A stretch of DNA of 64,000 nucleotides from Janthinobacterium sp. 344 (lineage in GTDB: Bacteria > Pseudomonadota > Gammaproteobacteria > Burkholderiales > Burkholderiaceae_D): the NCBI RefSeq assembly GCF_900112025.1, contig NZ_FOKL01000001.1, forward strand, positions 151,648 through 215,647, written 5' to 3'. The notes beneath the pieces are model-generated. The model was given only the letters and a program-made list of their open reading frames with translations, was not told the origin of the DNA and made no database searches. The translations under genes were made by a program, and so were the position numbers. Position 1 is the stretch's first letter. Every line of letters begins with the position of its first letter. Positions 2-53,499 of this stretch are shown in pieces.

Positions 2-78
2 TGGTGCGGCTGGCAGGAATTGAACCCACGACCCCTTGGTTCGTAGCCAAGTACTCTATCCAGCTGAGCTACAGCCGC
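2..78 (-). tRNA. tRNA-Arg (anticodon ACG)
   Basis: Read on the minus strand, the sequence folds into a complete cloverleaf: acceptor GCGGCTG pairs with CAGCCGC, the D-arm contains AGCTCAGCTGGATAGAG, the anticodon stem CTTGG/CCAAG encloses the loop CTACGAA with anticodon ACG, and the T-arm contains GGTTCAATTCC. The CCA end is encoded. ACG (read as ICG) decodes the CGU/CGC/CGA arginine codons. No integrase or attachment-site duplication is visible beside it in this window. Confidence 0.97.
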
Positions 79-596: not shown

Positions 597-3056
597 ATGG
601 CCAAGCATGACCGCAAGCAAGACCTGCTCCCCCCATCGGCACCGCTGCGTCTGACAGCAGAGCACCTCGTCCGCTTGCTGGAAGGCGTGACCGACGGTTT
701 CAGCCTGCTCGACCGCGACTGGACCATCCGCTATATCAATACGCGCGGCGCCGACATGCTGGCGCCGCAGCGCCTGCCAGGCGCCAGCATGGCAGGCAGC
801 AGCCTGTGGCAAGCCTGTCCCGGCTTGCTGGGCACGGAACTGGAAACCTATTACCGGCGCGCCATGGCGCAGCAGCACAGCGCCAGCTTCGAGCTGTTCT
901 ATCCGCCGCTGGGGCGCTGGCTGGAAGTGCGCATCTTCCCTTCCAGCGACGGCTTGACCACCTATATCCAGGACATCAGCCAGCGCAAGGCCGCCGAAGA
1001 AACCCTGCGCCAGAGCGAAGAAGACTTGCGCGCGCTGGCCAATTCCATTCCACAACTGGCGTGGATCGCCAGTTTCGACGGCACCATGTCCTGGTACAAC
1101 CAGCGCTGGCACGACTACACGGGCACCACCGCCGAGCAGATGGCCGGCGACGGCTGGAGCATGGCCTACGATAGCGAGAGCCTGCCGCACATGTTGCAGG
1201 GCTGGAAGGCCGCCTTGCGCGCCGGCACGCCGTTCGAGATGGAATTCCCCATCCGCGGCGCCGACGGCCAGTACCGCTGGTTCCTGACGCGCGCCAATCC
1301 CGTGCGCGACCGGGGCGGCCAGCTGCTGCGCTGGTTTGGCACGAGCACCGATGTCGACCAGGTCAAGCGCGCGCAGGAAGCCTTGCGCGACGAAACGCGC
1401 GTGCTCGAACTGCTCAACAACACGGGCGCCACCCTGGCCGGCACCCTGGACCTGCCTGCCCTGCTGCAAGAAACCGTGGACGCGGCCACGCGCATCAGCG
1501 GCGCGCGCTTTGGCGCCTTCTTTTACCAGGGTGATGAGGCCCTGCCCCCGGCGCGGGCCGTGAGCGGCATCAGTGCGCAACAGGCCAACGCCATCGCCGC
1601 CGAACTGCGCCAGGGGCCGGCCATGCGCCAGAACGATTTGCTGGCGGCCCCGGATGGCCACGCGGGCGCCGATATCGCACCGCCGCTGCGCAGTTGCCTG
1701 AGCCTGCCCGTCAGCTCGCGTTCGGGCCAGTTGCTGGGGCGCCTGCTGCTGGGGCATCCGCAAGCGGGCATGTTCAGCGCGCGCAGCGAACGCATCGTCT
1801 CGGCCATCGCGGCCCAGGCCGCCGTCGCGCTGGACAATACGCGCCTGTACGCGGCCGCCACGCGCGCCGCCGAAGAGCGCAAGGTGCTGCTCGACAGCGA
1901 GCGCGAGGCGCGCGCCGAGGCGGAGCGCACGAACCAGCTGAAAGATGATTTTCTTGCCACCCTGTCGCACGAACTGCGCACGCCGCTGTCGGCCATCCTC
2001 GGCTGGGCCCAGGTGCTGCGGCGCGGCACGCGCGACCAGGCCGACCTGCACCGCGGCCTGCAAAGCATCGAACGCAATGCCCGCGCGCAGGCACAGCTGA
2101 TCGAGGACTTGCTCGACATGAACCGCATCACCTCGGACAAGGTGCAACTGGACCTGCAAACGCTGGTGCCCGCCAGCGTCATCGCCTCGGCCATCGAAAC
2201 ATTGCGTCCGGCGGCCGACGCCAAGCACATCACCATCGATTGCAACGTCGCCAACGATGCCGGCACCATCACGGGCGACCCCAGCCGCCTGCAGCAAGTC
2301 ATCTGGAACCTGCTGTCGAACGCCCTGAAATTCACGCCACAGGGCGGGCGAGTCGATATCCACGTGCAGCGCGCGGGCAGCCGCCTGGCCATCACGGTGG
2401 CCGATAACGGCATCGGCATCCGCGCCGACTTCCTGCCGCACGTGTTCGACCGTTTTCGCCAGGCCGATGCCTCCACCACGCGCAAACATGGCGGCCTGGG
2501 CCTGGGACTGGCCATCGTCAAGCACCTGGTGGAACAGCATGGCGGCACGGTCACGGCCAGCAGCGCCGGTGAAATGCAGGGCGCCAGCTTCACCGTGCGC
2601 CTGCCCCTGAGCGCGCCGGCCACGCCGGCAGGCCAGCCCGGCAACGCCCTGCCCGACTTGCGCGGCATCCGGGTCTTGCTGGTCGACGACGAGCCGGACG
2701 CGCGCGAGCTGACGGAACGCATCTTGCGCGACAGCCACGCCGAAGTCCACGGCACCGGCAGCGCGGCCCAGGCGCTGCAGCTGCTGGGCCTAGTACAGCC
2801 TCACGTGCTGGTCAGCGACATCGGCATGCCCGGGGCGGACGGTTTCGACCTGCTGGCGCGGATCCGCGCCCGCGCTCCCGGCGACTGCGGCGCCCTGCCC
2901 GCCCTGGCGCTGACGGCATTTGCGCGGCCGGAAGACCGCCAGCGCGCACTCGACAGCGGCTTTCAGGCCTGGATCTCGAAGCCGCTGGACCCCAACGAAC
3001 TGCTGGCGGCGGTGGCCCGCCTGGCCACGCTGCGCCTGGCCGACGCGCCGCCCTGA
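597..3056 (+). CDS. Hybrid sensor histidine kinase (PAS-PAS-GAF-HisKA-HATPase-REC)
   Basis: An 819-residue cytoplasmic sensor kinase without membrane segments. A PAS domain occupies about residues 20-130, a second PAS/PAC domain about 135-260 and a GAF domain about 270-415. A short coiled linker leads to the HisKA H-box LSHELRTPLS with phospho-acceptor His458. The ATPase domain shows NLLSNALKF, DNGIGI and GGLGLGL. The C-terminal receiver, about 690-810, has the acidic pair in LLVDDEPD, phospho-acceptor Asp741 and the conserved Lys in WISKPLDP. It probably senses an intracellular signal and passes phosphate through its own receiver to a phosphotransfer protein or a separate regulator. The receiver-GGDEF gene at 3389 is a plausible partner, but this is inference from proximity only. 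Confidence 0.93.
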   Translation: MAKHDRKQDLLPPSAPLRLTAEHLVRLLEGVTDGFSLLDRDWTIRYINTRGADMLAPQRLPGASMAGSSLWQACPGLLGTELETYYRRAMAQQHSASFELFYPPLGRWLEVRIFPSSDGLTTYIQDISQRKAAEETLRQSEEDLRALANSIPQLAWIASFDGTMSWYNQRWHDYTGTTAEQMAGDGWSMAYDSESLPHMLQGWKAALRAGTPFEMEFPIRGADGQYRWFLTRANPVRDRGGQLLRWFGTSTDVDQVKRAQEALRDETRVLELLNNTGATLAGTLDLPALLQETVDAATRISGARFGAFFYQGDEALPPARAVSGISAQQANAIAAELRQGPAMRQNDLLAAPDGHAGADIAPPLRSCLSLPVSSRSGQLLGRLLLGHPQAGMFSARSERIVSAIAAQAAVALDNTRLYAAATRAAEERKVLLDSEREARAEAERTNQLKDDFLATLSHELRTPLSAILGWAQVLRRGTRDQADLHRGLQSIERNARAQAQLIEDLLDMNRITSDKVQLDLQTLVPASVIASAIETLRPAADAKHITIDCNVANDAGTITGDPSRLQQVIWNLLSNALKFTPQGGRVDIHVQRAGSRLAITVADNGIGIRADFLPHVFDRFRQADASTTRKHGGLGLGLAIVKHLVEQHGGTVTASSAGEMQGASFTVRLPLSAPATPAGQPGNALPDLRGIRVLLVDDEPDARELTERILRDSHAEVHGTGSAAQALQLLGLVQPHVLVSDIGMPGADGFDLLARIRARAPGDCGALPALALTAFARPEDRQRALDSGFQAWISKPLDPNELLAAVARLATLRLADAPP

Positions 3057-45197: not shown

Positions 45198-47867
45198 TCA
45201 GGCCGCGCCGCGCGCCTGGGCCAGCAACTGTCGTATCTCCGGTACGCAGGAGCCGCAATTGCCGCCCGCCTTGACGCAGGCCGTCACTTGCGCCGCCGTC
45301 GTCAGCTTCCGCTCCACGATGGCGGCGCAGATGGTGTTGCGCCCCACGCCAAAGCACGAGCAGACGGTGGGGCCGGCGTCCACGCCCTTGCCGATGGGCT
45401 GGCCCAGCAGCACGCCGGCGCGATCAAGCGCGTCCATGTGCGCATGCGCAAACAGGCCCGCGAGCCAGCTGCGCGACGGCAGGTCGGGGCGCGGCGAGAC
45501 ATACACGCATTGCGCGATGCGCCCCTCGTCCAGGTGCACGGCGCGGTACACGCCGGCGCTGGCGTCCGCGTAATCGAGCCAGTCGGCGTTGTCGTCCGTG
45601 ACGCCCAGCAGCGCGCGCGCCCAGGCGCCCAGGTCGGCGATGCGCTGGCGCCCGGCCAGCTCGTAGCGCAGGAACTGCGCGCCCTGGATGCGCGTCCAGT
45701 GCGCCACGCCCTCCAGGCTCAAGGGGGTGCGGCTCAGCACAAACGCATGCCAGTGCACGCGGAACTGTTCGATGCGCACGGGCGTATGCTTGAATTCCGG
45801 CTCGCCCGAGACGGGATCGACGACCGGGTTGACGACGGCGCCCACGCGCGCATCGGACGCATGCGCGTCGCTCCAGTGGATCGGCACGAAGACCTGGCCG
45901 CGCGCGATGCCGCCGCCATGCACGACCCGCGCCACCATCGCGCCCCAGGCGCTGGAGACGCGCGCCAGCTCGCCCTCGCGCACGCCGTACAGCAGCGCGT
46001 CCTGCGGATGGAGGTCGATGAACGCTTCGGCGACGTGGCCCGACAATTTCGCCGCCTTGCCCGTGCGCGTCATCGTGTGCCACTGGTCGCGCACGCGGCC
46101 CGTGTTGAGGATCAGCGGATAGTCCTCGTCGGGCATGTTGCGCGGCGCGCGCGGCGGCGTCGGCACGAAGCGCGCGCGCCCGTCCGCATGCGCGAAGCGG
46201 CCGTCGCCGAACAGCCGCGCCCGGCCCTGCGGCCACTGCTGCGGCGGCAAGCCGTCGTACTGCGCCGCGTTCAGCGCCACCAGGTGCGACAGATTGAACA
46301 GGCGGGCCGTCTCGCCGCCGTTGCGGAAGGCGGACAGGCGCGCGTGCTCGTCGAAGATGGCCTGCGCCGATGTGAATTCAAAGCCCGCATACCCCATGCG
46401 CCGCGCCACGTCGCACAGCACGCGCCAGTCGGCGCGCGCCTCGCCCGGCGCCGGCAAAAAAGCGCGCTGGCGCGAGATGCGCCGCTCCGAGTTCGTCACC
46501 GTGCCATCCTTCTCGCCCCAGCCCAGGGCGGGCAGCAGCACGTGCGCCTGCGCGTTCGTGTCCGACTGCGCGCTGATGTCGGACACCACCACCAGCTCGC
46601 ACCTGGCCAGCGCGCGCCGCACCTGGTCGGCGTCCGGCATGCTGACCAGCGGATTGGTGGCGATGATCCACACGGCTTTGACCTTGCCCGCCTCGATCGC
46701 GTGGAACAGGTCCACCGCCTTCAAGCCCGGTTTGCTGGCGATGCGCGGCGCATCCCAGAACGCTTGCACGGTATCGCGGTGCCGCGGATTATCCAGTTCC
46801 AGATGCGCCGCCAGCATGTTGGCCAGGCCGCCCACTTCGCGCCCGCCCATGGCGTTCGGCTGGCCCGTCAGCGAAAACGGGCCCATGCCGGGCTGGCCGA
46901 TGCGCCCCGTCGCCAAATGGCAGTTGATGATGCTGTTGACCTTGTCCGTGCCGGAAGACGACTGGTTGACGCCCTGTGAAAAGGCCGTGACGACCTTGCG
47001 CGTGGCGGCGAACGCCTGGTAAAACGCCAGCAGCGCTTGCGGGTCGACCTTGCAGATGCGCGCCACCTGCAAGGGGTCGCTGCAGTCCGCGTGCGCGGCC
47101 GCCAGCGCCTCATCGAGGCCGCGGCTGTGGCGCGTGACGAAATCGCCGGCGATCGCGCCCTCCTTCGCCAGGTAGCACAGCAAGCCGTTGAACAGCCACA
47201 CGTCGGTGCCCGGTTTCACGGGCAGGTGCAGGTCGGCCAGCTCGCAGGTGGCCGTGCGGCGCGGGTCGATCACCACCAGTTTCACTTCCGGCCGGGTTTC
47301 GCGGATGCGGGCAATGCGCTGGAACAAAATCGGGTGGCACCAGGCCGTGTTCGAGCCCACGAGCACGACCATGTCGGCCAGCTCCAGGTCTTCATAGCAG
47401 CCGGGCACGATATCTTCGCCGAACGCGCGCTTGTGGCCGGCGACGGCCGACGACATGCACAGACGCGAATTGGTGTCGATATTCGCGCTGCCCACGTAGC
47501 CCTTCATGAACTTGTTGGCGACATAATAATCCTCCGTCAGCAGCTGGCCCGACACATACAGCGCCACCGCGTCGGGCCCGTGCTCATCGATGATGGCGCG
47601 CAGGCCGCCCGCCACCTTGTCCAGAGCGGTGTCCCAGGAAGCGCGCTGCAACACGCCATCGACGCGCACCTGCGGCTGCAGCAGGCGGTGCTCGAGGTCC
47701 AGCGTATCGCCCAGGGCCGAGCCTTTCACGCACAGCTTGCCCAGGTTGGCCGGATGGCTGGCGTCGCCGGCGATGCGGATGGCGCCATCGGGCAAGGCTG
47801 TCGCTTCCACGCCGCAGCCGACGCCGCAATACGGGCAGGTGGTTTTCACGGGTGTGCAGGTCGTCAT
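45198..47867 (-). CDS. nasA: Assimilatory nitrate reductase catalytic subunit
   Basis: 889 residues from the ATG at 47867, preceded by AGGAA; the open frame upstream of this ATG lies opposite other genes and is not coding. The N-terminal [4Fe-4S] ligands are C11, C14 and C18 (CPYCGVGC) with the fourth in LCVKGS. The molybdopterin domains follow (SSAVAGHKRAFGED, NPLVSMPDADQVRRAL). A C-terminal BFD-like [2Fe-2S] domain (VCSCFGVGRNTICAA...CVKAGGNCGSCVPE) is typical of NasA. It reduces nitrate to nitrite in the cytoplasm with electrons from the preceding FAD protein. Confidence 0.96.
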   Translation of the reverse strand: MTTCTPVKTTCPYCGVGCGVEATALPDGAIRIAGDASHPANLGKLCVKGSALGDTLDLEHRLLQPQVRVDGVLQRASWDTALDKVAGGLRAIIDEHGPDAVALYVSGQLLTEDYYVANKFMKGYVGSANIDTNSRLCMSSAVAGHKRAFGEDIVPGCYEDLELADMVVLVGSNTAWCHPILFQRIARIRETRPEVKLVVIDPRRTATCELADLHLPVKPGTDVWLFNGLLCYLAKEGAIAGDFVTRHSRGLDEALAAAHADCSDPLQVARICKVDPQALLAFYQAFAATRKVVTAFSQGVNQSSSGTDKVNSIINCHLATGRIGQPGMGPFSLTGQPNAMGGREVGGLANMLAAHLELDNPRHRDTVQAFWDAPRIASKPGLKAVDLFHAIEAGKVKAVWIIATNPLVSMPDADQVRRALARCELVVVSDISAQSDTNAQAHVLLPALGWGEKDGTVTNSERRISRQRAFLPAPGEARADWRVLCDVARRMGYAGFEFTSAQAIFDEHARLSAFRNGGETARLFNLSHLVALNAAQYDGLPPQQWPQGRARLFGDGRFAHADGRARFVPTPPRAPRNMPDEDYPLILNTGRVRDQWHTMTRTGKAAKLSGHVAEAFIDLHPQDALLYGVREGELARVSSAWGAMVARVVHGGGIARGQVFVPIHWSDAHASDARVGAVVNPVVDPVSGEPEFKHTPVRIEQFRVHWHAFVLSRTPLSLEGVAHWTRIQGAQFLRYELAGRQRIADLGAWARALLGVTDDNADWLDYADASAGVYRAVHLDEGRIAQCVYVSPRPDLPSRSWLAGLFAHAHMDALDRAGVLLGQPIGKGVDAGPTVCSCFGVGRNTICAAIVERKLTTAAQVTACVKAGGNCGSCVPEIRQLLAQARGAA

Positions 47868-47878
47868 GGGAATTCCTA

Positions 47879-49105
47879 TCAGGCGGCCTGGCCGCACAGG
47901 GCCTGGCCAAACAGCAGGTGGGAGCGCAGCGCGGCGATATCGCGGCGCTGCTGGATCAGGTCGAAATACCAGGGGCCGTCCTGCACCTCGCCATACAGCA
48001 CGGCGCCCACCAGGCGGTTGCCCTGCACCACCAGGCGCTTGTAGATGCCACGGCGCGGGTCGCGCAACACCAGGTCTTCGCTGCCTTCGCCGCCGAGGAT
48101 GTCGCCGGCCGAATACAGGTCGATGCCCGTCACTTTCAGTTTGGTGGCGCTGGCTTGCTGCACGTAGCGGCGGTGCCCGGCGCCGGCCAGGTGCGCGCCG
48201 CACACGCGCGCCTGTTCCCAGATGGGCGCCACCAGGCCGAAGGTGGCGCGCCGGTGCTGCACGCACTCGCCCACGGCGTAGACGCGCGGGTCGTAGCTTT
48301 GCAGGCAGTCGTCGACGACGATGGCCCGCTCGCAGTGCAGGCCGGCCGCCTGCGCCAGCGCGATGTTGGGGCGCACGCCGGCCGTCATCACCACCAGGTC
48401 GGCGGGGATGACGCTGCCGTCCGCGAACTGCACGCCTTCCACGCGCGTGCTGCCCATGATGGCGGAGGTTTGCGCCTGCATCAAAAAGCGCAGGCCACGC
48501 GCTTCCAGCGCCGTTTTCAGCAGCATCGATGCGGGAGGATCCAGCTGCTGGTTCATCAGCGCGCCGCTCATGTGCACCACCGTCACCGCCATGCCCTGGC
48601 GCTGCAAGCCGTTGGCCGCCTCCAGCCCCAGCAGGCCGCCGCCGATGACCACCGCGTGGCGGCGCGTGCGCGCCGCCCGCAGCATGGCGTCGACGTCGTC
48701 GATATCGCGGAAACCGATCACGCCGGGCAGCGCGTGGCCCGGCACCGGGACGATGAAGGGCGTGGACCCTGTCGCCAGCAGCAGGCGGTCGTAGCGCACC
48801 GCGATGCCGGACAGCGACTGCACGGTGCGCGCCTGGCGGTCGATGCGCACCACCGGGTCGCCCGCATGCAGGGTGATGCCGTGCTGCGCATACCAGTCGC
48901 GCGTATGCAGCATGATGTCGTCCACCGTCTTTTCGCCGGCCAGCACGGGCGACAGCAGGATGCGGTTGTAATTGCCATGCGGTTCGGCGCCGAACACCGT
49001 GATGTCGTACAGGTCCGGCGCGAGTGTCAAGAGTTCCTCGACCGTGCGCATGCCGGCCATGCCGTTGCCGACCACGACTAAAGACGGCCGTGCGGCGGCG
49101 CTCAC
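47879..49105 (-). CDS. FAD/NAD(P)-dependent oxidoreductase, electron donor for nitrate reductase
   Basis: 408 residues with a GTG start overlapping the nirD stop (GTGA). It has the FAD fold LVVVGNGMAGMRTVEEL, the NAD fold AVVIGGGLLGLEAANGL and the GDCxxH-like site YAVGECVQHR of the NirB N-terminal/NasB family, but no Fe-S or siroheme domain. Standing between nirD and nasA, it most likely passes electrons from NAD(P)H to NasA. The frame upstream of the GTG is not coding. Confidence 0.9.
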   Translation of the reverse strand: MSAAARPSLVVVGNGMAGMRTVEELLTLAPDLYDITVFGAEPHGNYNRILLSPVLAGEKTVDDIMLHTRDWYAQHGITLHAGDPVVRIDRQARTVQSLSGIAVRYDRLLLATGSTPFIVPVPGHALPGVIGFRDIDDVDAMLRAARTRRHAVVIGGGLLGLEAANGLQRQGMAVTVVHMSGALMNQQLDPPASMLLKTALEARGLRFLMQAQTSAIMGSTRVEGVQFADGSVIPADLVVMTAGVRPNIALAQAAGLHCERAIVVDDCLQSYDPRVYAVGECVQHRRATFGLVAPIWEQARVCGAHLAGAGHRRYVQQASATKLKVTGIDLYSAGDILGGEGSEDLVLRDPRRGIYKRLVVQGNRLVGAVLYGEVQDGPWYFDLIQQRRDIAALRSHLLFGQALCGQAA

Positions 49106-49455
49106 AGGGCCACCCACACCATGCCGCCAGACACGCGCGCGGGCCAGGCGGCGACCGAGTGTTCCGGCGCTTCCATGCATTCTCCGCTGGCCAGGTCGAA
49201 ATGCTGCTTGTAGATGGGCGACGCCACCACGACGCGCTCGCCGAGGCTGCCCACCAGGCCCCGCGACAGCACGGAGGCGCCCGCGTTCGGGTCGACATTG
49301 TCGATGGCGTACACGCGCGGCGCCGCATCGCCGACGCGGAACACGGCCACGTGGCGGCCGTGCAGCAAGGCGCATACGCCCGTGTCGGGCACGATGTCGT
49401 CCAGCGCGCAGACGGCCACCCAATTGGCGTTGGCGGATAGGGACAGGTCGTTCAT
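49102..49455 (-). CDS. nirD: Nitrite reductase small subunit
   Basis: 117 residues. The ATG at 49455 has GGAGG at good spacing; a GTG six bases upstream overlaps the nirB stop but sits too close to that site. The protein has the Rieske-like NirD fold (WVAVCALDDIVPDTGVCALL, VYAIDNVDPNAG, SPIYKQHFDLASGECME) without the cluster-binding Cys/His pairs, as is normal for NirD. It forms the assimilatory nitrite reductase with NirB. Confidence 0.94.
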   Translation of the reverse strand: MNDLSLSANANWVAVCALDDIVPDTGVCALLHGRHVAVFRVGDAAPRVYAIDNVDPNAGASVLSRGLVGSLGERVVVASPIYKQHFDLASGECMEAPEHSVAAWPARVSGGMVWVAL

Positions 49456-49457
49456 GG

Positions 49458-52025
49458 TCACGCCTCCACGGCAAGGATGGGAATCACGGTGCCGGAGCGG
49501 CGTTCGCTTGCGGTGGCGGGACGGATCTGGCCCCGCTCCGCCACGAACACCACGTTCTCATCGTTCTTCCCGCTGTTGACGAAGTGGCGGAAACGCTGGC
49601 GCACGGCGGGGTCGGTGACGGCCGCCTTCCACTCGCAGGCATAGGTGTCGACCACGTGCCGCATGTCCGCTTCCAGTTCCGCGCCCAGGCCCAGGCTGTC
49701 GCCGATGATGACGCGCTTGAGGTAATCGAGGCCCCCTTCGAGGTTGTCGCGCCACACGCTGGTGCGCTGCAGGCGGTCTGCCGTGCGCACGTAAAACATC
49801 AGGAAGCGGTCGACATAGCGCACCAGGGTGGCTTCATCGAGATCGGATGCCAGCAGTTCCGCGTGGCGCGGCTTCATGCCGCCATTGCCGCAGACGTACA
49901 GATTCCAGCCCTTTTCCGTGGCGATCAGGCCGATGTCCTTGCCCTGCGCCTCGGCGCATTCGCGCGTACAGCCGGAGACGCCGAACTTGATCTTGTGCGG
50001 CGTGCGCAAGCCCTTGTAGCGGTTTTCCAGTTGAATGGCGAAGCCCACGCTGTCGGCCACGCCGTAGCGGCACCAGGTGGAGCCGACGCACGATTTCACC
50101 GTGCGCAAGGATTTACCGTAGGCGTGGCCCGATTCGAAGCCGGCCGCGATCAGCTCTTCCCAGATGGCCGGCAACTGGTCCACGCGGGCGCCGAACAGGT
50201 CGACCCGCTGGCCGCCCGTGATCTTCGTATAGAGACCGTATTTTTTCGCCACCATGCCGACGGCGATCAAGCCATCGGCCGTCACTTCGCCACCCGGCAT
50301 GCGCGGCACCACCGAGTACGTGCCATCCTTCTGGATATTGCCGAGAAAATAATCGTTACTATCCTGCAGGCTGGCGTGCACGGGCGAGAGCACGAAATCG
50401 TTCCAGCAAGACGCCAGGATATTCGCCGCCACGGGCTTGCACACGTCGCAACCGAGGCCCTGGCCATGCGCGGCCAGCAGTTCGCCGAAGCTGCGGAGCT
50501 TGCCGACCCGCACCAGGTGATGCAGTTCCTGGCGCGAATAGGCAAAGTGTTCGCACACGTGGTTGTTCACCATCATGCCCTGCTTCTGCATTGCCGCCTT
50601 CATGATCTGCGTCACCAGCGGCACGCAGCCGCCGCAGGCCGTGCCGGCGCACGTAGCACTTTTGAGGGCACCGATGGTGGTGGCCCCGCCCGCGACGGCC
50701 GCGCACAGCGCGCCTTTCGACACGTCGTTGCACGAGCAGATCTGCGCCGCATCGGGCAGGGCATCCACGCCCAGGCCCGCCTTTTGCTGGCCGTCCGGCT
50801 GCGGCAGGATGAGGAATTCGGGCGATGCCGACAGCTCGATCTTATTCAGCATCATCTGCAGCAAGGTGCCGTACTCGCTGGCGTCGCCCACCATCACGCC
50901 GCCCAGCAGATACTTGCCGCAATCGGAGACGACGATCTTCTTGTAGATCTGCTTGCGCTCGTCCATGAACTGGTAGGAGCGGCTGCCCGGCGCGGTGCCG
51001 TGCGGGTCGCCCAGGCTGGCCACGTCCACGCCCATCAATTTCAATTTGGTGCTCATGTCGGCGCCCTTGAAGCTGGCCTCGCCCGCTTCTCCCTCCTCCG
51101 TCCGCAGCAGGTGGCGCGCCGCGATGCGCGCCATTTCATAGCCGGGCGCCACCAGGCCGAAGACCAGGCCGCCCCACAGCGCGCATTCGCCGATGGCATA
51201 GATGTCGGGGTCGGACGTGAGGCAGCGGTCGTCGATGGCGATGCCGCCGCGCGGCCCCACCTCCAGGCCGCAGGCGCGTGCCAGTTCGTCGCGGGGACGG
51301 ATGCCGGCCGAGAAAACGATCATGTCCGCTTCCAGGTGGCTGCCGTCGGCGAACTGCATGCGGTGCGTGGCCGATTCGCCATCGACGATGGCCACGGTGT
51401 TCTTTTGCGTGTGCACCGTCACGCCCAGCTCCTCGATCTTGCGGCGCAGGACGCGCGCGCCCCCTTCATCGACCTGCACGGCCATCAGGCGCGGCGCGAA
51501 TTCCACCACGTGGGTATCGAGTTTCAAGTCGCGCAAGGCCTTCGCGCATTCGAGGCCCAGCAGCCCGCCGCCGATGACCACGCCCGTGCGGGACTTCGCG
51601 CCCCAGGCCAGCATGGCTTCCAGGTCTTCGATGGTGCGGTAGACGAAGCAGCCGTCGCGCTCCTTGCCCGGCAGCGCCGGCACGAACGGCGTCGAGCCGG
51701 TGGCGAACACCAATTTATCGTAGGCGAGCACCTCGCCCGTGCTGGCCGTGACGGTTCTTGCCGCCCGGTCGACGGACACGGCGCGCGCATTGAGTTTCAG
51801 CACGACGTTGCCCTTGTCGAAGAAGCCGGGCGCCACCAGCGACAGCTCGTCCGCCGATTTGCCGCTGAAAAATTCGGACAGGTGCACCCTGTCGTAGGCG
51901 GGGCGCGGTTCTTCGCACAGCACGGTGACGTGCAGGTGCGGCGCCGTGTCCAGCGCCAGCCGTTCGAGGAATTTATGCCCGACCATGCCATGGCCCAGGA
52001 CGACGATCTTCAGGGGATGGTGCAT
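49458..52025 (-). CDS. nirB: NADH-dependent nitrite reductase large subunit
   Basis: 855 residues, standard length. Order of domains: FAD/NAD oxidoreductase (VVLGHGMVGHKFLERL, VVIGGGLLGLECAKAL), BFD [2Fe-2S] domain (CSCNDVSKGALCAA...CAGTACGGCVPLV), and the siroheme/[4Fe-4S] reductase with cysteines in CVGSTWCRYG and VSGCTRECAEAQG. It reduces nitrite to ammonium by six electrons from NADH. Second gene of the nitrate operon, 10 bp after the transporter. Confidence 0.97.
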   Translation of the reverse strand: MHHPLKIVVLGHGMVGHKFLERLALDTAPHLHVTVLCEEPRPAYDRVHLSEFFSGKSADELSLVAPGFFDKGNVVLKLNARAVSVDRAARTVTASTGEVLAYDKLVFATGSTPFVPALPGKERDGCFVYRTIEDLEAMLAWGAKSRTGVVIGGGLLGLECAKALRDLKLDTHVVEFAPRLMAVQVDEGGARVLRRKIEELGVTVHTQKNTVAIVDGESATHRMQFADGSHLEADMIVFSAGIRPRDELARACGLEVGPRGGIAIDDRCLTSDPDIYAIGECALWGGLVFGLVAPGYEMARIAARHLLRTEEGEAGEASFKGADMSTKLKLMGVDVASLGDPHGTAPGSRSYQFMDERKQIYKKIVVSDCGKYLLGGVMVGDASEYGTLLQMMLNKIELSASPEFLILPQPDGQQKAGLGVDALPDAAQICSCNDVSKGALCAAVAGGATTIGALKSATCAGTACGGCVPLVTQIMKAAMQKQGMMVNNHVCEHFAYSRQELHHLVRVGKLRSFGELLAAHGQGLGCDVCKPVAANILASCWNDFVLSPVHASLQDSNDYFLGNIQKDGTYSVVPRMPGGEVTADGLIAVGMVAKKYGLYTKITGGQRVDLFGARVDQLPAIWEELIAAGFESGHAYGKSLRTVKSCVGSTWCRYGVADSVGFAIQLENRYKGLRTPHKIKFGVSGCTRECAEAQGKDIGLIATEKGWNLYVCGNGGMKPRHAELLASDLDEATLVRYVDRFLMFYVRTADRLQRTSVWRDNLEGGLDYLKRVIIGDSLGLGAELEADMRHVVDTYACEWKAAVTDPAVRQRFRHFVNSGKNDENVVFVAERGQIRPATASERRSGTVIPILAVEA

Positions 52026-52035
52026 TGCGCTCTCC

Positions 52036-53328
52036 TCAGGCCGCGGCCATTGATGGTTCGGCCGCTACACGGGTAAAGCGCACGGCGATGGCGCACAGGG
52101 CCGAGATCACCACCAGCGCGCTGAGGATGATCAAGGTCTGGCGGATGTCGCCCGTGCCCTTCATCAGGAAACCGGCGGCCACGGCGCCCACGTTGCCGCC
52201 CGCGCCGATGATGCCGGCCACGCCGCCGAGAGCCTTGCTGTCGATGAAGGGCACCAGCGCGTAGGTGGCGCCGCACGCCATGTGGGTGAACAGGCCGAAG
52301 ACCAGCATGGCGATGACGGCGTACGTGACGCTGTCGACCTTGGCAAACCACAGCAGGCCCACGCCTTCGCCGATCATCAGCATGAACAGCAGGGTCACGC
52401 GGCTGTTCAGGTTGCCGCGCAGGGCCAGTTTGTCGGACAGCCAGCCGCCCAGGGCGCGGGCGAACAGGGCCAGCAAGCCGAAGCTGCCGGCGGCCAGGCC
52501 GGCCGATTTCAGGGACATGCCGAAATGGTCGACGTAGTACACGGCGGCGATGTTGTGGATGAAAATCTCGATGCCGAAGCAGGCGCCGTAGGTGACGAAC
52601 AGCAGCCACACGCGGTAATTGGCGCTGGCGGCCTTGAAGCTGGCCCAGCCGCCCTTTTTCCCTTCGATGGCAGTGCCGGCCTTGCGCAGGTCCGAGTAAT
52701 TACCTTCCGGGCAATCCTGCGTATAGCGCCAGTACAGCGCGGCCATGATCAGCATCAGCACGCCCGGCACCAGCAAGGCGATGCGCCAGCCCAGCGATTC
52801 GGACACGCCCAGCATCAGCACGGCGCCGAGCAGCAAGGGCATCAGCGCCTGCGCGGCGCCGCCGCCCGCATTGCCCCAGCCGGCGGCGGCCGCATTCGCC
52901 GTGCCGACGACGCGGGGGGCGAACATCACGGAGGTGTGATATTGCGTGATGACAAAACTGGCGCCCACGGCGCCGATGCCCAGGCGGAAGAACAGAAAGC
53001 TTTCATAGCTTTGCGAGGCGGCCACGCCCAGCACGGGGATGGCGCCCAGCAGCAGCAAGCCCGTGTAGGTCTTGCGCGGGCCGTAGCGGTCGCACAGTGG
53101 CCCCACGAGCAGGCGCACGAGGATGGTGATGGCGACAGCGGCGATATTGATGTTCGCCACTTGCGCCAGGGACAGGCCGAACTCGCCCTTGATGACAGGC
53201 ATCAGCGGCGCGCAGGCGAACCAGGCGAAGAAACACACGAAAAATGCCATCCACGTCAGGTGGAATGCGCGCATGGGCGGCGTGGCGAGGGAGAAGAGCG
53301 CGATGCTTGTTGCTTTTTGGCTGGCCAT
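52036..53328 (-). CDS. narK: MFS nitrate/nitrite transporter (NarK/NasA family)
   Basis: 430 residues from the ATG at 53328. About twelve helices with the two nitrate signatures: GWGNAGGGAAQALMP near residue 150 and GIIGAGGNVGAVAAG near 380. Arginine residues in helices 2 and 8 regions (VRLLVGPLCDRYGPRK) fit the NNP family. First gene behind the sigma-54 promoter and the ANTAR leader. It imports nitrate for assimilation. The symbol is the family name; nasA is also used for such carriers. Confidence 0.93.
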   Translation of the reverse strand: MASQKATSIALFSLATPPMRAFHLTWMAFFVCFFAWFACAPLMPVIKGEFGLSLAQVANINIAAVAITILVRLLVGPLCDRYGPRKTYTGLLLLGAIPVLGVAASQSYESFLFFRLGIGAVGASFVITQYHTSVMFAPRVVGTANAAAAGWGNAGGGAAQALMPLLLGAVLMLGVSESLGWRIALLVPGVLMLIMAALYWRYTQDCPEGNYSDLRKAGTAIEGKKGGWASFKAASANYRVWLLFVTYGACFGIEIFIHNIAAVYYVDHFGMSLKSAGLAAGSFGLLALFARALGGWLSDKLALRGNLNSRVTLLFMLMIGEGVGLLWFAKVDSVTYAVIAMLVFGLFTHMACGATYALVPFIDSKALGGVAGIIGAGGNVGAVAAGFLMKGTGDIRQTLIILSALVVISALCAIAVRFTRVAAEPSMAAA

Positions 53329-53355
53329 GATGGTGTCCCGAAGTATCCCGTTGAT

Positions 53356-53411
53356 AAAACAAAACGGCGCCCGCCCCCGCCGATGAAAAATCAGCCAGGG
53401 CGGACGCCGTT
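53356..53411 (-). terminator. Attenuator terminator in the nitrate operon leader
   Basis: On the minus strand AACGGCGTCCGCCC pairs with GGGCGGGCGCCGTT (14 bp with one G-T pair) across a loop of about 23 nt, followed by TTGTTTT. It lies between the transcription start and the first start codon, directly after the second hexaloop hairpin, so it must be bypassed for the operon to be expressed. Confidence 0.92.
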
Positions 53412-53419
53412 GTCCAGGT

Positions 53420-53470
53420 GGTCCCACGTTGGACCGTCGTTGCGTTTATTCAGGGGATCGCCGTTGATCC
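53420..53470 (-). promoter_or_regulatory. ANTAR-target RNA element (two hexaloop hairpins)
   Basis: On the minus strand GGATC-AACGGC-GATCC (53455-53470) and GGTCC-AACGTG-GGACC (53420-53435) are two 5-bp hairpins with six-base loops. Both loops have A at position 1 and G at position 4, the conserved bases of the ANTAR-binding RNA motif. Placed just before an intrinsic terminator, they match NasR/NasT leaders, where the nitrate-activated ANTAR protein binds and prevents termination. Confidence 0.88.
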
Positions 53471-53483
53471 GTACCTCCTGTTT

Positions 53484-53499
53484 AGCAAGCGCCGTGCCA
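53484..53499 (-). promoter_or_regulatory. Sigma-54 promoter of the nitrate assimilation operon
   Basis: TGGCACGGCGCTTGCT matches the -24/-12 consensus TGGCAC-N5-TTGC exactly. Transcription would start near 53473, immediately before the first hexaloop hairpin. GGTGCA half-sites at 53562-53567 and 53583-53588 could be part of an NtrC enhancer. Confidence 0.88.

Follow-up and report, generated by a model that had tools for sequence, protein, structure and literature searches.

What decides whether RNA polymerase enters the nitrate assimilation operon on the minus strand of the 64-kb stretch of DNA analysed here (the window), and what is the structured leader in front of its first gene? We read this leader as a NasT-controlled transcription antitermination leader that carries three ANTAR hexaloops and lies downstream of a sigma-54 promoter, with a probability of roughly 0.9. 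The mechanism is known; the leader is a three-hexaloop variant of it, the textbook ANTAR examples having two. The operon, which the earlier note had listed as transporter, nirB, nirD, FAD reductase and nasA, is supported by Pfam and NCBIfam matches. Its first gene (52036..53328, minus strand) encodes a narK-type nitrate/nitrite MFS transporter that matches Pfam MFS_1 and scores 297.1 bits, under the cut-off of 311.7, against the NarK family model TIGR00886. On the same strand follow nirB, the assimilatory nitrite reductase large subunit (49458..52025; TIGR02374, 1106.9 bits, over cut-off), nirD, the nitrite reductase small subunit (49102..49461; TIGR02378, 116.6 bits, over cut-off), a FAD/NAD(P) reductase like the N-terminal half of NirB (47879..49105, start codon chosen by hand), which matches positions 1–392 of the 794 in TIGR02374 with 437.2 bits, under cut-off, and a nasA-type molybdopterin nitrate reductase (45198..47900, 5′ end approximate), which matches the Fdh-alpha, NasC and NasA models, each under its cut-off. 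A tRNA gene occupies the extreme start of the window (5–78, minus strand).

Just upstream of the leader, and in line with the sigma-54 control claimed before, we observed a −24/−12 element of the sigma-54 type, TGGCAC-N5-TTGC (53485..53499, minus strand, as are all features below), from which the usual −12 distance would place the transcription start near 53473. A simple NtrC-like palindrome pattern is found upstream in 4 of 36 leaders (a set in which one locus is broken and another is a duplicate), the window's among them, and is not conserved. The first hairpin, H1 (GGATC-AACGGC-GATCC, 53455..53470), begins ~3 nt from the predicted RNA 5′ end and is followed by H2 (GGTCC-AACGTG-GGACC, 53420..53435) and H3 (TGGAC-AACGGC-GTCCG, 53401..53416), each with A at loop position 1 and G at position 4 (A1/G4), where an ANTAR target leader is expected to have at least two such hexaloops. 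H3 overlaps the 5′ arm of an intrinsic terminator (53356..53409), whose stem (53409–53365) consists of an outer 13 bp, or 14 counting the A–T pair beside the T tract, and an inner 6 bp, and is followed by the T tract TTTTGTTTT (53364–53356); the narK start codon ATG lies at 53328–53326. The loops AACGGC and AACGTG, the terminator with its T-rich tail and the narK start codon had all been recorded by the earlier note and are all present. H1 and H2 are thus real, but their designation as the recognition pair of a two-hexaloop leader does not hold, since a third A1/G4 hexaloop, H3, had been overlooked, and it is H3 that competes with the terminator.

Such an arrangement is rarely produced by chance. 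When the 145-nt leader was dinucleotide-shuffled 20,000 times and A1/G4 hexaloops with stems of at least 5 bp were counted, none was present in 18,950 shuffles, one in 1,031, two in 19 and three in 0, and the 64-kb window contains, on either strand, no second triple of A1/G4 hexaloops within 100 nt. The segment 53310–53500 folds with z = −4.47, 0 of 200 shuffles folding as well. In the predicted minimum-energy fold H1, H2 and the terminator are formed and H3 is sequestered; with the T tract left out of the fold, the terminator amounts to −40.0 kcal/mol versus −4.0 for the 4-bp H3 hairpin alone.

A1/G4 hexaloops are the binding sites of ANTAR proteins, which let polymerase pass by holding the loop that overlaps a terminator; in published leaders this overlapping hexaloop is required (PMC3369936). 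In the window, the 3′ stem and loop bases of H3 are the 5′ arm of the terminator, so that distal hexaloop and terminator are mutually exclusive, and because the 3′ half of H3 lies within the terminator, it is H3, not H2, that is the antiterminator stem (P2 of published ANTAR leaders). H2 corresponds to P1, and H2 and H3 together are the classical P1/P2 pair, with a linker of 3–4 nt and loop starts 19 nt apart. The ANTAR type that had been assigned to this leader is therefore borne out, with three hexaloops and the distal one overlapping the terminator. In the mechanism that we propose, RNA polymerase would start near 53473, H1 would fold as it leaves the polymerase and H2 after it. Without nitrate, NasS would hold NasT, the H3 region would pair into the strong terminator, and transcription would end ~110–118 nt in. 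With nitrate, NasS would release NasT, which would grip the A1/G4 hexaloops and keep H3 closed; as the 3′ stem and the 3′ half of the loop of H3 form the terminator 5′ arm, a closed H3 would break the terminator, and narK-nirB-nirD-FAD reductase-nasA would be transcribed.

We then compared the leader with those of relatives. narK orthologues were found in 38 of 116 family genomes (E ≤ 1e-60), and an alignment of 34 rows (A1), the window's leader (L003) and 33 relatives, was made from the sigma-54 element to H3. Left out were L071 (deletion into narK), L072 (leader same as that of L026), L023 and L070 from one genome (a contig end cuts the leader of L023, and the script missed L070), and L068 and L069 (no leader). 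In L071 (G003), the sequence passes from just after H2 into narK coding sequence, H3, the terminator and the narK start being missing. Across the 34 aligned leaders, the GGCA and TGC columns of the sigma-54 element are invariant, and loop A1 and G4 are constant in 33 of 33 H1 (L064 has no H1), 34 of 34 H2 and 34 of 34 H3, which agrees with the expected conservation of loop positions 1 and 4 and of the terminator. Positions 1, 2 and 4 are invariant in all three loops, whereas H1 and H2 differ among leaders at positions 3, 5 and 6. In H3, A1, A2, G4, G5 and C6 are kept in 34/34, positions 5–6 being fixed too, as would be predicted if these bases do double duty in the terminator. The loop-closing pair is C–G in 33/33 H1 and 34/34 H3, and in H2 it is C–G in 23 and U–G in 11 leaders.

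The stems are conserved as structures: 94.6% of stem cells hold standard pairs versus 88.6% with shuffled partners, and both sides are changed in 42 cells versus 12.6 in the shuffles. Doubly changed pairs, indicating covariation, number two in H1, five in H2 and none in H3, whose stem is almost invariant and so offers none; one H3 stem pair is broken in L012. A terminator follows each of the 34 leaders, 33 of them identified automatically (−25.6 to −42.7 kcal/mol) and that of L014 by eye, the script having picked the wrong T run there. The overlap of H3 (3′ stem and loop bases) with the terminator 5′ arm was likewise recovered automatically in 33 of 34 leaders, with loop bases 4–6 paired in the terminator in 28 of them and 5–6 in five, and is visible by eye in L014. 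As to spacing, the T of TGGCA lies 33–44 nt from the H1 loop (sd 1.9), which would put H1 almost at the 5′ end of the transcript, the H1 and H2 loops are 30–54 nt apart (sd 4.7), and the starts of the H2 and H3 loops 19–27 nt (sd 2.6; the 34 leaders). The one leader without H1, L064, belongs to a genome (G067) that has NasT nonetheless, so H1 is dispensable in L064.

Which regulator could act on these loops? The earlier note made its reading depend on an ANTAR protein in the genome and placed the regulator outside the window, and on both points the genome search agreed. The genome, 6.44 Mb in 27 contigs and given as 100% complete, contains two ANTAR matches, both outside the window's contig. 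One belongs to a nasT-nasS pair on contig 12, the window lying on contig 17: the NasT candidate (L001) is a 222-aa frame with ANTAR and without a Pfam receiver match, in which a pseudo-receiver would be expected, and the nasS candidate is a 413-aa NMT1_2 frame ~25 bp downstream of nasT. NasT and NasS, the latter a nitrate-binding, NrtA-like protein in such systems, are hence encoded together, as a NasS-NasT system requires. The second ANTAR gene (L002) encodes receiver plus ANTAR, and its adjoining frames resemble, by eye, thiE and an alcohol dehydrogenase. Neither of the genome's two ANTAR proteins has the NIT domain of a Klebsiella-type NasR, which narrows the control by "NasR/NasT" proposed earlier to NasT-NasS, the NasR half of that proposal being dropped. 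We take NasT as the more probable regulator of the leader, since L002 carries a receiver domain and nothing resembling a nitrate sensor was seen next to it.

NasT aligns with PDB 6wsh/6ww6, titled "Response regulator", which we take for EutV from the sequence and from the residue numbers in the accessible part of PMC8934654. The Met-Asn pair of the EutV loop-binding site is kept in NasT, and two arginines of that site are lysines in the window genome's NasT (residue roles as given in the same partial text, PMC8934654).

A covariance model, R1, was built from 34 of the aligned leaders. In the window's genome it gave a single match, and no further copies of the leader were found there. In the family and the order, where scans used stricter filters that lose weak matches, R1 matches 69 of 116 and 107 of 399 genomes, respectively. 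ANTAR genes are present in 87 of the 116 family genomes and a NasT match in 74. An ANTAR gene accompanies the leader in 68 of 69 genomes, and R1 finds nothing in 28 of the 29 ANTAR-less genomes (Fisher p = 2.7e-13, genomes being counted as independent despite shared ancestry). The only leader-positive family genome without ANTAR is G079, whose match, at 29 bits and lacking both a −24/−12 element and a T tract, we do not accept as a true leader.

Six leader genomes have no NasT match: G079, G103, in which the ANTAR match lies within a 410-codon frame, and four genomes of one genus, in which the sole ANTAR match lies in a frame of 421–470 codons. The protein scanned from this genus (L077) is a NasR-like NIT-ANTAR protein. 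One family thus combines the same leader architecture with no fewer than two kinds of regulator: NasS-NasT and, in a single genus, NIT-ANTAR. Counting against the proposed control, 11 family genomes with a NasT match lack an R1 match. Among them are G008 and G074, the 2 of 38 narK genomes in which the leader is missing despite an ANTAR protein. We noted that in one genus the ANTAR protein has a PilJ domain behind ANTAR (L082 from G074; L083 from G008, by eye); going by a title in the reference list of PMC8199190, the PilJ domain of the chemoreceptor McpN reportedly binds nitrate. In G074, narK belongs to a divergent operon with a sigma-54-like element, the first gene of which is rich in NHALLESN repeats, and no hexaloop leader was seen at this narK operon.

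The leader is not confined to narK. We scored by script 45 further sites from 43 loci, namely 23 high-scoring order matches and 20 hand-picked family stretches, with no random draw, and with a site of L139 that is listed again in L140 counted once. At least three A1/G4 hexaloops were present in 24 sites, two in 19 (the rejected G079 match included) and one in 2. By eye, 41 of the 45 directly precede a nitrate, nitrite or siroheme gene, the products being NrtA-like, a second NarK kind, NarK-like, NirB, an FNT-like channel or CobA-like; two of the rest have no readable frame and two look unrelated, one of these being the rejected G079 match. In L126, two divergent leaders share one intergenic region (1249–1336, minus strand, and 1501–1614, plus strand), one before a narK-like gene and the other before a cobA-like gene.

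Parts of this architecture recur in known systems. The nasF leader of Klebsiella oxytoca, controlled by NasR, likewise has A1/G4 hexaloops with C:G closing pairs, a distal hexaloop overlapping the terminator and a nitrate assimilation operon downstream (PMC3369936; PMC7496416, in the portion available). It has two hexaloops in contrast to three in the window, and its regulator is a single NIT-ANTAR protein, NasR, in contrast to NasT and NasS in the window's genome. According to the same portion of PMC7496416, NasR selects the C:G closing pair and binds two hairpins about tenfold tighter than one (~1 versus 12 μM). NasS-NasT systems (Paracoccus, Pseudomonas, Azotobacter, Bradyrhizobium) share the nasT-nasS gene pair; nitrate frees NasT from NasS, and NasT then binds the nas leader RNA, as stated in the available sections of PMC3795266 and PMC5424462. 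For the Paracoccus leader, these sections describe hairpins HI and HII, and a three-hexaloop count was not seen in them. The Enterococcus eut leaders, bound by EutV, also have A1/G4 hexaloops with P2 overlapping the terminator, and differ in having two hexaloops, an ethanolamine signal and a phosphorylated receiver (PMC3369931 and PMC8934654, both in part). Their linkers span 5–12 nt, more than the 3–4 nt between H2 and H3, and shortening to 3 reduced induction, a point against our reading; the eutP loops start 24 nt apart (A29 to A53), the P1–P2 spacing to which H2–H3 of the window comes closest (excerpts of PMC3369931).

Two models compete for the way in which an ANTAR dimer engages a pair of loops: the earlier one has both bound at once, whereas the structure of EutV with RNA pointed to single loops being bound in turn (PMC8934654, partial text). 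Three-loop leaders and sister lineages with only H1 or H2 beside H3 provide natural variants that could separate these two models by loop counting. We found no description of a three-hexaloop nitrate leader in the open literature searched, parts of it seen as excerpts; the key narK-motif and 2012 P. aeruginosa papers lie outside it, so an earlier description is possible. By its title, the 2012 paper reportedly deals with antitermination in the P. aeruginosa nirBD operon, and a paper on an A. vinelandii nitrate leader is also said to exist.

In a further sample, sites were chosen by a pattern consisting of the sigma-54 element, a gap of 62–92 nt and H3, run over named genomes with H1 and H2 disregarded. 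The pattern yielded at least 121 sites in at least 120 loci; it is a sample from which the gap length excludes short two-loop leaders, and at least three sites (L168, L210, L231) come from genomes also in A1. Among the matches listed, and by strict criteria, 106 of 121 gaps hold an A1/G4 hexaloop versus 5% of shuffled gaps, and 39 of 121 hold two versus 0.05% of shuffles; of the 150 gap hexaloop hairpins of at least 5 bp, again among the matches listed, 122 are A1/G4. With relaxed stems, a second A1/G4 hexaloop stands beside H3 in 114 of the 121 sites listed (H1 and H2 in 38, H1 only in 51, H2 only in 25, neither in 7), and at least one is present in 7.5% of the relaxed shuffles.

These counts bear on the possibility that H1 and H2 are the pair that matters and that H3 is a mere by-product of the terminator sequence. 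The H3 stem and loop bases 4–6 are constrained by the terminator in any case, and A1 and A2 of H3 could pair weakly with the T tract, a segment that the fold did not include; yet none of the 33 folds places A1 or A2 in the terminator stem, and the 34 leaders nonetheless never lose them, an A1/G4 H1 is absent in 32 and an A1/G4 H2 in 58 of the 121 pattern sites (among the matches listed), and published leaders need the terminator-overlapping loop (PMC3369936). We find this possibility hardly credible, and keep H3 as the antiterminator stem.

H3 usually has at least one more hexaloop, and which one depends on lineage, the window's lineage keeping both. With genera grouped into families by hand from record titles, and among the matches listed, Oxalobacteraceae have H1 and H2 in 15 of 16 sites; Burkholderiaceae in the narrow sense (n = 35) have H1 only in 30, both in 2 and neither in 3; Comamonadaceae-type sites (n = 35) have H2 only in 18, both in 13, H1 only in 3 and neither in 1; and the remaining 35 sites have both in 8, H1 only in 18, H2 only in 6 and neither in 3.

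What, then, does H1 do? The leader might be an ANTAR target in which H1 plays no part in antitermination, being a protective or insulating 5′ hairpin or the relic of a duplication. In keeping with this, H1 is absent from L064, and 24 of the 25 sites that have H2 without an H1 hexaloop still allow a 5′-proximal hairpin with another loop, in several cases a tetraloop (among the matches listed, by a loose criterion and without shuffle control). Against this, loop bases A1, A2 and G4 of H1 are unchanged in all 33 leaders that have it, although positions 3, 5 and 6 drift, a pattern that mere structure would not predict; and in 30 of the 35 narrow-sense Burkholderiaceae sites listed, the sole A1/G4 partner found for H3 is H1, not H2. 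We consider a role outside antitermination somewhat unlikely. Most likely, H1 is an extra hexaloop where NasT would load early or gain affinity; transfer onward after such loading would fit the fixed position and strict loop conservation of H1. As a tentative extension, to which we give rather less than even odds, the nitrate leaders of beta- and gammaproteobacteria may work as a ladder, in which a NasT dimer loads on H1, passes to H2 and then to H3, H1 and H2 being exchangeable partners of H3 of which lineages keep one, the other or both; the presence of all three here would then make induction more sensitive or cooperative than in a two-loop leader.

Finally, we asked how the leader relates to annotated RNA families. 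At gathering cut-off, Rfam has nothing at the leader site; a relaxed search returned RF03032 (narK RNA) at 26.3 bits versus a cut-off of 43.2 and RF00625 (P11) at 25 bits versus 70. None of 20 loci of order or family type (L112–L131) reaches a gathering cut-off, and another 18 loci gave a single one that does, the Pseudomonas-type L275 (P11, 126.2 bits). L275 shares with the window a sigma-54-like element and three A1/G4 hexaloops, the last inside the terminator (ACAGAG and AAAGGC found by script; the first, AACGUG, by eye and from the Rfam structure line), and differs in a longer spacing from promoter to first loop. narK RNA matches occur in 34 of 300 order genomes, three of them over cut-off, and 26 of the 34 match places coincide with R1 matches. 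Of 12 narK RNA loci scored by script, 7 have the sigma-54 element and at least two hexaloops, and all 12 a T run. The three members over cut-off are among those 7; narK RNA thus shares the sigma-54-like element, A1/G4 hexaloops and T tract, and differs in that these three members have two hexaloops.

The filing of the Pseudomonas relative L275 by Rfam as an sRNA gene raises the possibility that the terminated leader is a trans-acting small RNA, with termination as its purpose, as the name given to P11 implies. We regard this as very unlikely, given that 41 of the 45 further sites immediately precede a nitrate-, nitrite- or siroheme-related gene (by eye) and that the mutual exclusion of H3 and terminator is conserved; the 2012 paper, which by its title reportedly concerns antitermination at the P. 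aeruginosa nirBD operon, speaks against it too. Judged by the shared sigma-54 element, hexaloops, terminator or T run and overlap with R1, the P11 "sRNA" and narK RNA seem to be antitermination leaders of the window's type, and both Rfam families are best read as ANTAR leaders. The finding suggests a function for two Rfam entries, of which the narK motif is said to originate with Weinberg 2017 and P11 with early Pseudomonas sRNA screens. The RF03032 and RF00625 models also seem to include sigma-54 promoter DNA.
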